Assembly: GCF_024979235.1 (NCBI RefSeq)
Contig: NZ_JANLCM010000002.1
Coordinates: 1,581,841-1,645,840 of the forward strand
Source of the DNA: Herbiconiux aconitum
GTDB lineage: Bacteria; Actinomycetota; Actinomycetes; Actinomycetales; Microbacteriaceae
DNA length: 64,000 bases
Reading direction: 5' to 3'
The notes beneath the pieces are model-generated. The model was not told where the DNA came from. It made no database searches and saw only the letters and a list, made by a program, of their open reading frames with translations. Positions within the stretch are counted from its first letter, which is position 1; the number at the start of each line of letters is the position of its first letter. Shown piece by piece: positions 9,627 through 59,546 of the stretch. The position numbers and the translations under genes are program-made.

Positions 9627-9671
9627 TCCTCGTTCCTGCCCGCCATCCCGGCGGACTTGACTGATTCTATG

Positions 9672-9782
9672 CCGGAGTGGCTGTGCTTCGCGCAGCCACT
9701 CCGGGCGTCGCCGGTCCTCGCCCGGCGCCGCGCGACATGTTCGCGTGTGGTCGCTACCGCGGCCGCGCGCTTACCCTGGGTC
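9672..9782 (+). repeat. 111-bp intergenic repeat, copy 1, with covarying hairpin
   Basis: This non-coding interval between parA and xerD matches 57102-57212 (inverted) over exactly 111 bp without gaps. It begins with a 15-bp hairpin at 9672-9704 (loop TTC) and continues with a 78-bp block that is about 90 percent identical between copies and contains palindromic cores around ACATGT and GCGGCCGC. The hairpin stems differ in sequence yet both stay paired. The hairpin abuts the parA promoter region. I do not recognise it as a named element. Confidence 0.85.
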
Positions 9783-9844
9783 ATCGAGTAGGGCCTGTTG
9801 CGTGCATTCTCATCTCCGACCACCTGGAATGTGCAACGCTCATC

Positions 9845-19417: not shown

Positions 19418-19427
19418 CACAAAGAAG

Positions 19428-19547
19428 TCCGGCGGTGTCCTACTCTCCCACAAGGTCCCCCTTGCAGTACCATCGGCGCAGAGAGTCTTAGCTTCCGGGT
19501 TCGGAATGTGACCGGGCGTTTCCCTCTCGCTATGGCCGCCGAAACAC
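19428..19547 (-). rRNA. rrf: 5S ribosomal RNA, operon 1
   Basis: The minus strand reads TGTTTCGGCGGCCATAGCG...GACACCGCCGGA, about 120 nt with complementary ends and the usual CCGAACCCGGAAG loop. Boundaries are estimated from the terminal helix. Confidence 0.95.
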
Positions 19548-19592
19548 TATTGATGTATCAAAGTGAATTCGAGCAATCATTGCTGATTGTTC

Positions 19593-19617
19593 GGTTCTCG
19601 ACCGTACATCGAGAACC
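19593..19617. other. Hairpin in the 23S-5S spacer, operon 1
   Basis: GGTTCTCGA (19593-19601) and TCGAGAACC (19609-19617) form a perfect 9-bp stem with a 7-nt loop, next to a TAGTGGACGC-like box that also occurs in the 16S-23S spacer. It is probably an rRNA processing or antitermination signal. The same structure lies at 26686-26710 in operon 2. Confidence 0.6.
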
Positions 19618-19683
19618 ACATAGTGGACGCAAGCAATCTTGGCTCTAAATACCAGCCTTACAACGGTATGAAGATAGTGATTA

Positions 19684-24741
<5,058 letters not shown>

Positions 24742-24977
24742 TGTTTACGCACAGACACGACCACCGGAATAGGCGGACCGCGCTGCAAGTTTGAAACTGA
24801 CAGAACAAATCATTACTGACTTGCTTTGTTGTTCTAAATGTTTCCCAAAAGGAATCCCTCTCCGACCAAAGCCGAAGCGGGGTTTTTGGCATATGACATT
24901 GTGCACGCTGTTGAGTTCTCAAGGATCGGATGCTCCAAAAACCAGGCCTTCCAGCCATCGTTCCGGGCAACTTCTCT
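24742..24977 (-). other. rRNA leader, operon 1
   Basis: About 235 nt separate the core promoter from 16S. The minus strand carries TTGAGAACTCAACAGCGTGC (24922-24903), a box resembling those in the rRNA spacers and probably involved in antitermination or RNase III processing. No protein gene is supported here. The same sequence lies at 31835-32070. Confidence 0.7.
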
Positions 24978-25005
24978 ATATTACCTGCTCCCAACCCCAT
25001 GTCAA
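24978..25005 (-). promoter_or_regulatory. rRNA operon 1 core promoter
   Basis: A -35 hexamer TTGACA (25005-25000), a 16-nt spacer and a -10 hexamer TAATAT (24983-24978) form the most consensus-like promoter in the window. It falls inside the repeat shared with operon 2. Upstream of it, outside the repeat, lies an inverted repeat GCCGAGA-N5-TCTCGGC (about 25022-25040). Confidence 0.75.
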
Positions 25006-25193
25006 ATCGGCCGTTTTCGGCGCCGAGACAAGATCTCGGCACGCCAAACTAACCATGACACCATCGGTCAGGATCAAGATGTTCTTCGGAGCCGCGTCAC
25101 CCTAGAGCTGGGCCCGTAATGGACACCGCGCTTCTTCGTGTTTCGCGTTGCTCCGAGGCAACTTGTCAACCATAACCAGTCTCAGACCCGACG

Positions 25194-26426
25194 TCAAATC
25201 GACTCGTCGTCGTCTTCTTCGAACACTTCGATGGTGTCGTCGGGCTCACCGTTCAAGGCGAGGTCGGCGCGCTCGGCGCGCTGCCGCCACTCGGCCGACT
25301 CTTCGTCCTGTCCCAGCTCCGCGAGCACCTCGGCATAGGCGTCGAACAGCTCGGGGCTGTAGGAATAGGCCACGTCGGGGTTCAGCTGAGGGATCTCGAG
25401 CTCGGTGAGTGCGGCATCCGCCTGGCCGAGGTCGAGTCGTGCACCTGACATCGCGATCGCGACAGCCACCTGCGACGGCACCGAGAGCGTCGACCGCTCG
25501 ACGGACCGACCGGCCTCGAGCGCGCGCTCAGGACGCCCCATCCCCCGCTCGCTGTCGATCATCAACGCGAGCTGCTCGTTCGATCCCGAGATCCGCCGGA
25601 ACGTGCGAAGTTCCCGCAGGGCGAGGGCGTAGTCGCCGGTGGCGTAGGCGGTGATGGCGAGGGTCTCGCGCACCACGCCGATCCTTCCCGCGCGCCGGGA
25701 TGCCGACATCGCGTGCTGGTGCGCCAACTCGGGATTCTCGTCGATCAGCCGACCGGCCATCACGAGGTGCCGAGCGACTTCCTCGGCGTTCTCCTTGTTC
25801 AGCGTCTTCAATTCCATACGCGCGACCTTGTCGAGATCTCGTCCGACGACGTCGTCGGGGATCTCGGGGTCGTCGTGCCGCGGACGCACCGAACGCAGCT
25901 CCCGTGCGAGCAGTTCCTCTTCGGTGAGAGGAGGACGCTCGAACCGGGATGCGCTCTGGTCGTTACGGGCCGGCTTGCCGTCCTTGGTCCAGAGGCGCCG
26001 CTCCCCCGGTCCGCCACTCGAGGGCCGGCCACCGCGATCAGGTCGCCCGCCGCGATCAGAACCACCGCGCTCCGGCCGCCCGCTGCGGTCGCCGCTGCGC
26101 TCAGGTCGGGCACCGCGATCGGGACGCGCACCGCGATCGGGACGAGCACCGCGATCGGCGGCGCCGGCACGCTCAGGGCGTGCGCTGCGATCGCTCCGAC
26201 CACCGGCGTCCGGTCGTCCGCCGCGATCGGGGCGAGAGCTGTTGTCACGGCGCGGCGTGAACGGTCGCTTGTCGGTATCGTCACGCGCAGGCCGACTACC
26301 GTGCGGGCGGGCCGACCGGTCCGAGCCGGCGTCTTTGCGGGGAGGGCGTCGGTCGCCATCATCGCGCTTCGGACGCGCGTCGCCGCCGCGATCGTCGCGA
26401 CGTTTCTCGTCATCGTTGTCGGTCAT
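25194..26426 (-). CDS. Arg/Gly-rich TPR-like protein between the two rRNA operons
   Basis: The 410-aa protein (ATG at 26426, preceded by GAGGAGGG) has a highly charged low-complexity N-terminal half (residues 1-150) rich in RPDRGGRPDR / RGARPDRGA repeats, like RGG-type RNA-binding tails. The C-terminal half (from about 185) is helical and TPR-like (AEEVARHLVMAGRLIDENPE, GDYALALRELRTFRRISG), ending in an acidic tail. A TPR protein (Rv1691 in M. tuberculosis, from memory) occupies the same place relative to the HAD phosphatase and tyrS, but there without rRNA genes. It starts 54 nt after the terminator of rRNA operon 2. Function unknown; RNA or ribosome association is speculative. Confidence 0.85.
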   Translation of the reverse strand: MTDNDDEKRRDDRGGDARPKRDDGDRRPPRKDAGSDRSARPHGSRPARDDTDKRPFTPRRDNSSRPDRGGRPDAGGRSDRSARPERAGAADRGARPDRGARPDRGARPERSGDRSGRPERGGSDRGGRPDRGGRPSSGGPGERRLWTKDGKPARNDQSASRFERPPLTEEELLARELRSVRPRHDDPEIPDDVVGRDLDKVARMELKTLNKENAEEVARHLVMAGRLIDENPELAHQHAMSASRRAGRIGVVRETLAITAYATGDYALALRELRTFRRISGSNEQLALMIDSERGMGRPERALEAGRSVERSTLSVPSQVAVAIAMSGARLDLGQADAALTELEIPQLNPDVAYSYSPELFDAYAEVLAELGQDEESAEWRQRAERADLALNGEPDDTIEVFEEDDDESI

Positions 26427-26480
26427 GGGGCCCTCCTCAGGCACTCATTCGGCGGCTGCAAATACCACGGACTTAACGCA

Positions 26481-26510
26481 AAATGGCCACCCATTGCTGG
26501 GTGGCCATTT
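26481..26510 (-). terminator. Intrinsic terminator of rRNA operon 2
   Basis: This is the same 12-bp stem and 6-nt loop as at 19388-19417. It lies 54 nt before the start codon of the TPR-like gene. Confidence 0.9.
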
Positions 26511-26520
26511 CACAAAGAAG

Positions 26521-26640
26521 TCCGGCGGTGTCCTACTCTCCCACAAGGTCCCCCTTGCAGTACCATCGGCGCAGAGAGTCTTAGCTTCCGGGTTCGGAAT
26601 GTGACCGGGCGTTTCCCTCTCGCTATGGCCGCCGAAACAC
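26521..26640 (-). rRNA. rrf: 5S ribosomal RNA, operon 2
   Basis: The sequence is the same as at 19428-19547, displaced by 7,093 bp. Confidence 0.95.
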
Positions 26641-26776
26641 TATTGATGTATCAAAGTGAATTCGAGCAATCATTGCTGATTGTTCGGTTCTCGACCGTAC
26701 ATCGAGAACCACATAGTGGACGCAAGCAATCTTGGCTCTAAATACCAGCCTTACAACGGTATGAAGATAGTGATTA

Positions 26777-31834
<5,058 letters not shown>

Positions 31835-57028: not shown

Positions 57029-57101
57029 GCCCATCTCACGCGGTCTCGTCCCTCACCGAGTGGATCAGCACGAGATCGAACGCGACAGGCCGCTCCAGGA
57101 C

Positions 57102-57212
57102 GACCCAGGGTGAGCGCGCGGCCGCGTCAGCGACCGCTCGCGAACATGTCGCGCGGCGCCGGGCAGGGACCGGCGACGCCCGTGGAGCCCGCGCGAAGCA
57201 CGGGCCCCACGG
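57102..57212 (-). repeat. 111-bp intergenic repeat, copy 2, with covarying hairpin
   Basis: This is the inverted second copy of the element at 9672-9782, lying between the convergent lexA and metE genes. Read on the minus strand, its 15-bp hairpin (57212-57180) begins 3 nt after the metE stop and could stop transcription there; the rest runs toward lexA. The stem has different bases from copy 1 but pairs equally well. 57029-57101 holds nothing else that I recognise. Confidence 0.85.
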
Positions 57213-57215
57213 CAG

Positions 57216-59546
57216 CTAGACACCCACGCGAGCGCGCACCAGGCGGGTGGCCTCCAAGACGTTGCGCAATGATGCAACGGTCTCGTCGTAGCCACGCGTC
57301 TTGAGACCGCAGTCGGGGTTCACCCACACCTGGCGCTCCGGGATCGACGCGAGCGCCTTCTCCAGCAGCTCGGTGACCTCCTCGACCGACGGCACGCGGG
57401 GCGAGTGGATGTCGTAGACGCCCGGGCCCACCCCGTGGTCGAAGCCGCTCGCCTCGATGTCCTGCACGACCTCCATGCGCGAGCGGGCCGCCTCGATGGA
57501 GGTGACGTCGGCGTCCAGCTTGCGGATGGCGTCGATCACCACACCGAACTCCGAGTAACAGAGGTGGGTGTGGATCTGGGTCGAGGCCCGCACCCCCGCG
57601 GTCGCCAGCTTGAACGATCCCACCGACCAGTCGAGGTAGGCGTTCTGGTCGCGCTTCTTCAGCGGCAGCAGCTCGCGGAGCGCCGGCTCGTCGACCTGCA
57701 CGATGGGGATGCCCGCGGCTTCCAGGTCGTGGATCTCGTCGCGCAGCGCGAAGGCGACCTGGCGTGCGGTCTCACCGAGCGGCTGATCGTCGCGCACGAA
57801 CGACCAGGCGAGGATGGTGACCGGTCCGGTGAGCATGCCCTTGACCGGCTTCGACGTGAGGCTCTGCGTGAACACCGACCAGTCGACCGTGATCGGGGCG
57901 GGCCGCGACACGTCGCCCCAGAGGATCGACGGTCGCGTGCAGCGGCTGCCGTAGGACTGCACCCAGCCGTTCTCGGTCACCGCGAACCCGTCGAGGTTCT
58001 CGGCGAAGTACTGCACCATGTCGTTGCGCTCGGGCTCCCCGTGCACGAGCACGTCGAGTCCGATCTCCTCCTGCAGCTCCACCACGCGACGGATCTCGTC
58101 GCGCATCAGCTCGCTGTAGTCGTCGGGTGAGAGCTCGCCCTTCACGAGACGCGCTCGGGCCCGGCGGATGTCGCCGGTCTGGGGGAACGACCCGATCGTG
58201 GTGGTGGGAAGGAAGGGCAAACCGAGCGCCGCTTCCTGGGCCTCGAGTCGGGCGGCGTAGGCGTCGCGCTCGAAGTCACCTCCGCTGAGGGCCGCTTCGC
58301 GCAACCGCACGTCACCGTCGCGCACACCCGGCGCGGCCAGGCGGTCGGCCAGAGCCGCGGTCGCCTGATCGAGCTCCTCTTCGATGACCACGCGCCCTCC
58401 GCTGAGTCCATGGGCGAGCGTCGCGATCTGTTGCACTTTCTGGTCGGCGAAGGCCAGCCAGCTCGCGAGGCGCGGGTCGAGCTTCGACTCGTCCTCGACG
58501 TCGTGCGGCAGGTGGAAGAGCGAAGTCGACGATGACACCGAGACGTTGAAGGTCAGCGCGCCGAGTGCCTCGAGCTTGTCGTAGGCGGCAGCCAGGTCGC
58601 CCCGCCAGATGTTGTGGCCGTCGATGACGCCGCCCACCAGCACGGTCTCGCCCAGGTGCCCGAGCGCGGGGTCGAGTGCGTTCGGCAGCGATCCGCGCAC
58701 CAGGTCGAGCCCGATGGCTTCGACTCCGGATGCGACGAGCACCGGCAGCGCGTCGTCGAGACTGTTGTAAGCGGAGGCCACGAAGATCGACGGGCGCTCC
58801 CCCGTGGTCAACGTCGCGTAGGCGCTCTCGACCGCCGCCAGTGTCACGGCGCGCGGCACGTCGACGCTCTCACTGACGAGCCCGGACTCGTCGAGCTGCA
58901 CCCACTCGGCGCCGGCCTCGGCCAGCGTCGCCAGCAGCTCCTGGTAGACCGGGAGCAGGTCGGCGAGGCGATCGAGCGGCTGGTAGCCCTCGGGGGCGTC
59001 GTCGCTCGCTTTGCTCAGCAGCAGGAAGGTCACCGGCCCCACGATCGAGGGCCGCGTGAGGTAGCCTTCGGCCTTCGCCTCGAGGAACTCGTCGAGGATG
59101 CGCTCGCTCGCCAGCGAGAAGGCCGTCTCCGGTCCGATCTCGGGCACGAGGTAGTGGTAGTTGCTGTCGAACCACTTGGTCATCTCGAGCGGTGCCCGGG
59201 ATCCCTCGCCGCGTGCGATCGTGAAGTAGCCCGCGAGGTCGATCCGCCCGTCGGCGTCGACCAGGTCGGCGAAGCGGGAGGGCACGGCGCCCACCGTCAC
59301 CGCCGCATCCAGCACCTGGTCGTAGTAGGAGAAGCTCTCGGGGATCGACGAGTCACTCTGGCCGAGGCCGAGCTCGACAAGCCGCTCGCGGGTGGCGGAA
59401 CGAAGGCCCGCCGCCGTGCGCTCGAGTTGCTCGGCGCTGATCGATCCCGCCCAGAAGGCTTCGACGGCCTTCTTGAGTTCGCGGCGACGGCCGATGCGCG
59501 GGTAGCCGAGGATGGTGCCGGCAGGGAACGAGGTCTGGTTGCTCAT
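57216..59546 (-). CDS. metE: Cobalamin-independent methionine synthase
   Basis: The 776-aa protein transfers a methyl group from 5-methyltetrahydrofolate (polyglutamate) to homocysteine. The N-terminal barrel starts LGYPRIGRRRELKKAVEAFW; the C-terminal barrel has the zinc ligands in IHTHLCYSEF and NPDCGLKTRG and FPTTTIGSFPQT before it. The ATG at 59546 makes an ATGA overlap with the metF stop, so metF-metE is one unit that supplies and uses methyl-folate. Confidence 0.97.
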   Translation of the reverse strand: MSNQTSFPAGTILGYPRIGRRRELKKAVEAFWAGSISAEQLERTAAGLRSATRERLVELGLGQSDSSIPESFSYYDQVLDAAVTVGAVPSRFADLVDADGRIDLAGYFTIARGEGSRAPLEMTKWFDSNYHYLVPEIGPETAFSLASERILDEFLEAKAEGYLTRPSIVGPVTFLLLSKASDDAPEGYQPLDRLADLLPVYQELLATLAEAGAEWVQLDESGLVSESVDVPRAVTLAAVESAYATLTTGERPSIFVASAYNSLDDALPVLVASGVEAIGLDLVRGSLPNALDPALGHLGETVLVGGVIDGHNIWRGDLAAAYDKLEALGALTFNVSVSSSTSLFHLPHDVEDESKLDPRLASWLAFADQKVQQIATLAHGLSGGRVVIEEELDQATAALADRLAAPGVRDGDVRLREAALSGGDFERDAYAARLEAQEAALGLPFLPTTTIGSFPQTGDIRRARARLVKGELSPDDYSELMRDEIRRVVELQEEIGLDVLVHGEPERNDMVQYFAENLDGFAVTENGWVQSYGSRCTRPSILWGDVSRPAPITVDWSVFTQSLTSKPVKGMLTGPVTILAWSFVRDDQPLGETARQVAFALRDEIHDLEAAGIPIVQVDEPALRELLPLKKRDQNAYLDWSVGSFKLATAGVRASTQIHTHLCYSEFGVVIDAIRKLDADVTSIEAARSRMEVVQDIEASGFDHGVGPGVYDIHSPRVPSVEEVTELLEKALASIPERQVWVNPDCGLKTRGYDETVASLRNVLEATRLVRARVGV

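Follow-up and report, generated by a model that had tools for sequence, protein, structure and literature searches.

Folded intergenic repeats of Herbiconiux as probable arms of a REP/BIME-like mosaic element

Insertion sequences of the IS200/IS605 family carry subterminal hairpins on one strand and have neither a constant terminal inverted repeat nor a target duplication. In the REPINs, the unit that spreads is a doublet, i.e., a pair of inverted repeats. According to the available part of PMC3733652, REPs are 20-40 bp long, consist of a single hairpin and end in an unpaired GTAG or CGTC. REPs and BIMEs are described there as dispersed intergenic palindromes that frequently form dimers with the tagged ends outward and the partners often unlike. 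They are found mostly between convergent or unidirectional genes near stop codons, the GTAG termini often providing a TAG stop, and the stems fall into sub-families with complementary changes and G-T pairs (PMC3733652). The same part of that paper derives the tagged REPs mainly from Proteobacteria, describes the CGTC group as apparently having no transposase of its own and leaves open how a group lacking RAYT spreads; the word "Actinobacteria" does not occur in it. In pneumococcus, BOX, RUP and SPRITE are folded intergenic repeats with slow turnover, over-represented between convergent genes; BOX is modular, and RUP and BOX fold by pairing their terminal inverted repeats (PMC3049150, in the part available). 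High-GC Gram-positive bacteria are represented by two Mycobacterium genomes and one Corynebacterium genome in the accessible portion of PMC2267715, and the genus Herbiconiux is the subject of PMC10011130, as far as its available part goes. Among the titles listed in searches of the open-access literature, none concerned the Herbiconiux repeat family described here.

The stretch of 64,000 nucleotides analysed here (the window) contains two copies of this repeat, which the initial annotation had correctly located at positions 9672-9782 on the plus strand (copy 1) and 57212-57102 on the minus strand (copy 2). Their alignment spans 111 bp, has no gaps and shows identity at 94 positions. Ten of the mismatches fall in the first 33 nt, which form hairpin H1, and the approximately seven differences claimed for the following 78-bp block were counted as exactly seven. 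At the H1 stem positions for which compensation had been proposed, both sides are indeed altered with pairing kept (position 4, GC>TA; 5, AT>GC; 11, TA>CG), and the TA pair at position 7 becomes G·U, as had been stated; a further compensatory change at position 9 (GC>CG) had been overlooked. The proposed extent of 111 bp is right in so far as both copies are conserved there, while the unit itself is longer, as a conserved tail runs approximately 22 nt past this limit and many copies elsewhere have a conserved tip, up to approximately 13 nt long, ahead of H1. The frame PAPRDMFA-(C/S)GR can be read directly in both sequences, and the appropriate annotation of both copies is a repeat, not small proteins. 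Neighbour genes were assigned by domain search: copy 1 has xerD on one side and the parA upstream region on the other, whereas copy 2 faces lexA and directly follows metE, as had been noted, its start sitting in the metE stop codon. Of the 15 spacers of the genus read at the parA junction, 12 have a -10-like TAGAAT, a putative promoter -10 element. We consider it rather likely that both copies represent arms of a non-autonomous, REP/BIME-like mosaic element restricted to Herbiconiux, which is selfish, is selected for its folded strand and is kept at the 3' ends of genes.

Table 1. Positions of the arm features in the window and of further features mentioned in the text.
Feature	Position	Strand	Remark
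Copy 1, hairpin H1	9672..9704	+	15-bp stem, TTC loop, 15-bp stem
Copy 1, hairpin H2	9705..9731	+	
Copy 1, core	9734..9782	+	GACATGTTC, hairpin H3, TTACCCTGGGTC
Copy 1, H3 stem	9743-9754 with 9759-9770	+	
Copy 1, outer two pairs of H3	9739-9740 with 9773-9774		TC/TT mismatch between these pairs and the stem
Copy 1, possible pairing	9734-9736 with 9780-9782		GAC with GTC
Copy 1, conserved tail	9783..9804	+	ATCGAGTAGGGCCTGTTGCGTG; beyond the limits of the initial annotation
Copy 1/parA upstream junction	9662..9671	-	CATAGAATCA
Copy 2, tip	57213..57218	-	TAGCTG; TAG is the metE stop codon
Copy 2, hairpin H1	57180..57212	-	
Copy 2, hairpin H2	57153..57179	-	
Copy 2, core	57102..57150	-	H3 and CTCACCCTGGGTC
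Copy 2, tail	57079..57101	-	
Two rRNA operons	19427-31834		5S-23S-16S
Second palindromic repeat (about 56 bp)	L160:15071-15126		
Second palindromic repeat	L160:15209-15262		
Second palindromic repeat	L157:2233-2288		
Second palindromic repeat	L146:1990-2044		
Second palindromic repeat	L149:2217-2272		
Second palindromic repeat	L194:1390-1443		
Y1_Tnp-like gene of G001	L165:1456-1878		between lexA and metE
Tip motif away from listed arms	G000:C1:2317599-2317609		TGTGYTAGYTG
Tip motif away from listed arms	G000:C2:1386891-1386901		TGTGYTAGYTG

The dispersed family that had been predicted from this pair comprises at least 91 arms in the 4.16-Mb genome to which the window belongs (the own genome), as found by a covariance-model search in which 150 of 9,360 candidates were scored (threshold E <= 0.01). 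With copy 1 as the query, 40 of 120 candidates in the own genome were scored, which gave at least 40 matches, none with an E value worse than approximately 1e-17. The core pattern with up to three mismatches gave 56 hits, the reversed pattern none. Among the 39 relatives searched, arms were found in 14 of the 15 other Herbiconiux genomes and in none of the nine genomes of other genera of Microbacteriaceae; weak hits in three of 15 order-level genomes (E 1e-4 to 1e-3) were taken as chance. The number of matches across the genus ranges from 0 to at least 27 per genome among the matches listed, genome G001 being without arms and G009 and G013 having one match each. The exact core pattern was present in 18 stretches of named genomes, i.e., in Herbiconiux ginsengi (12), H. 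daphne (2), H. solani (1), a Herbiconiux MAG (2) and an unclassified member of Microbacteriaceae (1). The initial annotation had considered the possibility of only two copies without homologues elsewhere; what is found is many copies and homologues within the genus. A mobile vehicle was also sought and rejected, as no arm match was obtained in viral contigs (searched with the exact pattern), plasmids or phages.

The arms are approximately 140 nt long and consist of a short tip, three hairpins (H1-H3) and a tail, in the order tip (CTGTGYTRGYTG, often only TAGCTG), H1, H2, CGACATG, H3, CACCCTGGGTCGTCGA and tail. The H1 stem has 15 bp and a triloop, the H2 stem 10 bp and a 7-nt loop, and the H3 stem 12 bp, extended to 16 bp where GA stands in place of TC. 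Tips, as read by eye, are CTAGCTG, TTAGCTG or TAGG..TACC, and a second type of arm, B, has different H1 and H2 sequences and the outward end GGTACC. The hairpins act as modules that are exchangeable across arms. The H2 loop occurs as two block alleles, found in 37 and 1 of the 39 own arms of alignment A1 and in 28 and 31 of the 60 arms of alignment A2, and the H3 loop sometimes holds an additional hairpin. At L060, L191, L203, L215, L188 and L054, which come from several genomes, the loop of this additional hairpin resembles GGCCTGCGGTC. In a common sub-family of own arms there is a TC/TC tandem mismatch in H1 and in the extension of H3 (A1 columns 8-9/35-36 and 75-76/105-106), other arms having complementary letters at these columns.

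As defined by length, single hairpin and terminal tag, the GTAG and CGTC super-families do not include the arms: three hairpins in approximately 140 nt stand against one in 20-40 bp, and the end is TAGCTG or TAGG..TACC instead of GTAG or CGTC, a conserved CGTC being present but internal to the arm. The hosts differ as well, the arms being actinobacterial. The folding, the intergenic location and the preference for convergent genes are shared with BOX, RUP and SPRITE, from which the arms are set apart by description, as both sequences and modules differ. Among the three identities offered by the initial annotation, a REP-like element, a structured non-coding RNA and a protein-binding site, the first fits best. 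Many dispersed intergenic copies and inverted dimers, which define REP/BIMEs, are found here as well, and so are the placement at gene 3' ends and the donation of TAG, which are typical of REP/BIMEs without being defining.

Covariation was followed in two alignments. A1 contains 39 of the 40 copy 1 matches (L046, with a hairpin inserted in H3, is excluded), and covariance model R1 was built from it. In A1, a plain sequence alignment whose counted structure was hand-drawn from the same sequences, 21 of 40 pairs are doubly changed and 93.5% of the cells pair, and none of 500 shuffles matches the observed value on any of five measures. In A2 (60 arms from other genomes), which was fitted to the model structure and leans towards it, and which includes some orthologous arms of G014 and G005, 29 of 40 pairs are doubly changed and 0/500 shuffles reach this. 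When tested against a tree-aware null, in which substitutions were re-placed on the tree in 300 simulations, 4 of 44 structure pairs of A1 were significant at E<0.05 as against 0 of 8,867 others; for A2 it was 9 of 44, and the five significant pairs that lie beyond the structure all fall within the loop block of H2. An alignment of many copies devoid of covariation, the other outcome foreseen at the start, was thus not obtained, and the arms covary above the tree-aware null, as is required of a structured RNA.

The wobble pairs bear on which strand is folded. One H3 pair is U·G in 38/38 own and 60/60 other distinct arms (98/98). Among the 38 own arms, G·U also stands at three further pairs, in 30, 37 and 38 arms; these pairs vary in A2, where 19/50, 38/52 and 38/60 of the arms with letters on both sides have G·U or U·G. 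Over all pairs, G·U cells number 148 against 8 A·C cells in A1 and 211 against 44 in A2. Without the four wobble pairs the counts become 5 against 8 and 56 against 44, i.e., the excess is gone in A1 and smaller in A2. The predicted folds have energies of -83.6 and -87.5 kcal/mol on the sense strand and -65.9 and -74.9 kcal/mol on the antisense strand, the weaker antisense fold being partly the same evidence as the wobble pairs, which are mismatches on that strand; a helix CGCGACA/TGTTGCG in the predicted fold of copy 1 was left out of the structure. The initial annotation had suggested selection for an RNA or a cruciform. The covariation supports a selected structure, but the cruciform has become less likely, because it would use both strands and the U·G pairs are fixed and the opposite strand folds less well. 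That one single strand, RNA or ssDNA, is the form that matters is supported but not settled: few pairs carry the argument, and the evidence is a leaning, not a proof. The letters of the fixed wobble pairs might instead be conserved because a protein recognises them.

The latter possibility would also leave room for a purely mutational origin of the covariation, in which template switching in palindromes perfects the stems without selection (quasi-palindrome correction). Mutations of this type are known (PMC3820800, in the part available), and both the two block alleles of the H2 loop and the near lack of a G·U excess beyond the four wobble pairs are consistent with it. Template switching should, however, erase U·G pairs, yet one of them persists in all 98 arms and another two persist in 37 and 38 of the 38 own arms, and the TC/TC mismatch has been retained in many own arms; we regard this origin as quite improbable.

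The arms are concentrated at the 3' ends of genes. The 70 gene spaces that contain arms comprise 46 convergent, 22 tandem and 2 divergent ones, whereas the corresponding numbers for 59 background spaces of at least 100 bp are 11, 27 and 21 (Fisher p=7e-8). The background is the window plus approximately 152 kb of two relatives and itself contains spaces with arms. Gene positions were taken from a simple codon-usage caller, the start codons of which are unreliable. Such convergent placement would also be expected of bidirectional terminators that are alike by common ancestry, and in several genomes arm-free fabF and metE spacers have, as judged by eye, terminator-like palindromes in the same place. 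H1, however, passes straight into H2 without the T run of an intrinsic terminator, unlinked arms are up to 100% identical, and the conserved unpaired stretches are unnecessary for termination, so that common ancestry as terminators appears improbable. A terminator palindrome of its own accompanying every arm, which looked true at the own fabF and groEL, was likewise dismissed, since a downstream palindrome beating all 20 shuffles was found for only 13 of 59 single arms.

A stop codon faces the tip of 72 of 88 arms, in 52 of them within 30 bp, and the tail of 75 of 90 arms, which is just as frequent. TAG accounts for 34 of the 52 tip-side stops in comparison with 56 of 182 in the background, and in 23 of 88 arms a stop codon is located at or within the tip region. 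The stop codon of fabF is TAG in three of six arm-bearing genomes (own, G006 and G003) and in 0/10 others, as determined for 16 loci by model search and by eye (L192, L195 and L196 were judged arm-free by eye only, and the arm of the own locus L182 was taken from the genome-wide covariance-model search). In two of these three genomes the arm abuts the TAG, and in G003 it is further away. A close metE match was found in four genomes only: the own gene ends in TAG, those of G001 and G013 end in TGA, and G002 has TAGCTG without an arm. A pre-existing TAG stop as the target of the element was considered and is weakened, since arm-free fabF (10/10) and metE (2/2, in G001 and G013) end in TGA or TAA. 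The armless TAGCTG at metE of G002, as well as an armless TAGCT in G005, can be read as a scar or as a target.

All this is compatible with a structured 3'UTR RNA that benefits the host as a protector of mRNA 3' ends, a terminator or a protein-binding site, and that duplicates slowly without being selfish. The covariation against both shuffles and the tree-aware null and the arms at stop codons and between convergent genes speak for such a role, as do two observations made by eye: the fabF 3' end has arms or ordinary palindromes depending on the species, and in four genomes (own, G002, G006 and G015) an apparent terminator hairpin of groEL fills the slot of H1. Single arms in tandem spaces, however, have no preferred orientation relative to the upstream gene (10 sense, 8 antisense), which disfavours an element working only in sense and, together with the stop codons equally frequent on the tail side, argues against a purely sense 3'UTR role. 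Moreover, the searches detected arms in a single genus, where the matches listed range from 0 to at least 27 per genome, and the REPs of other phyla have the same placement (PMC3733652, available part). We consider the host-beneficial RNA possible but somewhat unlikely.

The arrangement of neighbouring arms points instead to the mosaic element. Of 17 pairs of close arms (<500 bp apart), 16 are inverted with the tips outward and one is tandem, so that palindromic, dispersed arms in tip-outward unlike dimers, located at gene 3' ends and donating TAG, resemble REPs and BIMEs. An inverted repeat pair spreading within a genome is also known from the REPINs (PMC3116915, in the part available), from which the arms differ in being much larger and in having no RAYT partner in the own genome. 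Two own composites located 581 kb apart could be aligned and have sharp ends, from GCTGTG... to ...GGTACCC. A composite shared by G014 and G005 has alike inverted tips of the GCTGTGCTAGCTG type at both ends. Inverted tips and sharp boundaries are features of a classical MITE, moved by the DDE transposase of an insertion sequence with matching ends; but the tips of the own composites are unlike (GCTGTG... vs ...GGTACC), no consistent target-site duplication was found at the composites, and the exact tip motif TGTGYTAGYTG has 11 hits in the own genome, nine of them at known arms. We regard a MITE as very improbable. The other two hits (Table 1) are possibly remnants or chance, the reversed pattern having 24 hits. 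In or beside the elements of G014 and G005 there is also a second palindromic repeat of approximately 56 bp (GTTGGTCGCGCAGATGG...GAGCGACCAAC; Table 1).

The arms present at a given place differ between species. The parA-xerD spacer contains one arm in the own genome, an arm of the other type with an H1 remnant in G002, H1 alone in G015 and, as read by eye, arms lacking H1 in G003 and G008; the model had no hit in 10 other, short spacers, and the spacer L067 is incomplete. G014 and G005 are 89-95% identical over aligned stretches, and at the six loci aligned the number of arms is equal in three, lower by one arm in two and differs as present/absent in one, where G014 has the arm and G005 only TAGCT; the arms in L147, L161 and L162 have no counterpart among the stretches compared. 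Two unlinked own arms are identical, 100% over 130 bp, and their spread or conversion is therefore recent.

A RAYT was rejected as the mover of the arms. The Y1 transposase (PF01797), the presence of which in the genome characterises RAYT-mobilised REPs, was not detected in the own genome and was found in one of the 16 genomes of the genus, which is the arm-free G001; the arms share the absence of RAYT with the CGTC group of REPs. The lone Y1_Tnp-like gene of G001 is located between lexA and metE, in the gap where the own genome has copy 2. Y1 transposases usually have an HUH motif, which this gene lacks as judged by eye. An autonomous version of the element between arms was also looked for in the own genome, in two convergent stretches with wider spacing; as judged by eye, these contain host genes (GNAT, phosphoglycerate mutase and M16 peptidase in the first, CarD, IspDF and CysS in the second) and no transposase. 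Subterminal hairpins, no constant inverted repeat and no consistent duplication nevertheless liken the arms to IS200/IS605, from which the counts of Y1 transposase (0 in the own genome, 1/16 in the genus) set them apart. This anatomy suggests movement as a single strand by an enzyme supplied in trans.

A complete element of the proposed kind would consist of two inverted arms with the tips outward round a central palindrome, and would be roughly 350-600 bp in size; single arms, including both copies of the window, probably are what remains after the loss of one arm. Selection would act on the arm's own strand, folded as a single strand of either DNA or RNA. The main role would be selfish, with the hairpin array as the substrate of the enzyme that copies or moves the element. 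Copies would persist at the 3' ends of genes, above all between convergent ones, where the tip can serve as a stop codon and the hairpins may become a folded 3'UTR. Judging from their placement at gene 3' ends, such arms may end or protect the mRNAs.

The arms look and sit like REPs, yet they are larger and modular, and the searches detected them in a single actinobacterial genus. No Y1 transposase was found in 15 of the 16 genomes searched. How "orphan" REPs spread, and whether they matter to mRNA ends, could be tested cleanly with this family. It is conceivable, though rather unlikely, that the arms represent a new class of single-strand hairpin mobile elements in Actinobacteria, moved by an enzyme other than RAYT and donating stop codons and 3' ends; these elements would have exchangeable hairpin modules round an invariant GGUCG...CGGCC core with the fixed U·G pair.

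At the gathering score, the only Rfam match in the window was rRNA. It belongs to two operons in direct tandem, 7,093 bp apart, which are 99.8% identical over 5,671 bp (Table 1).
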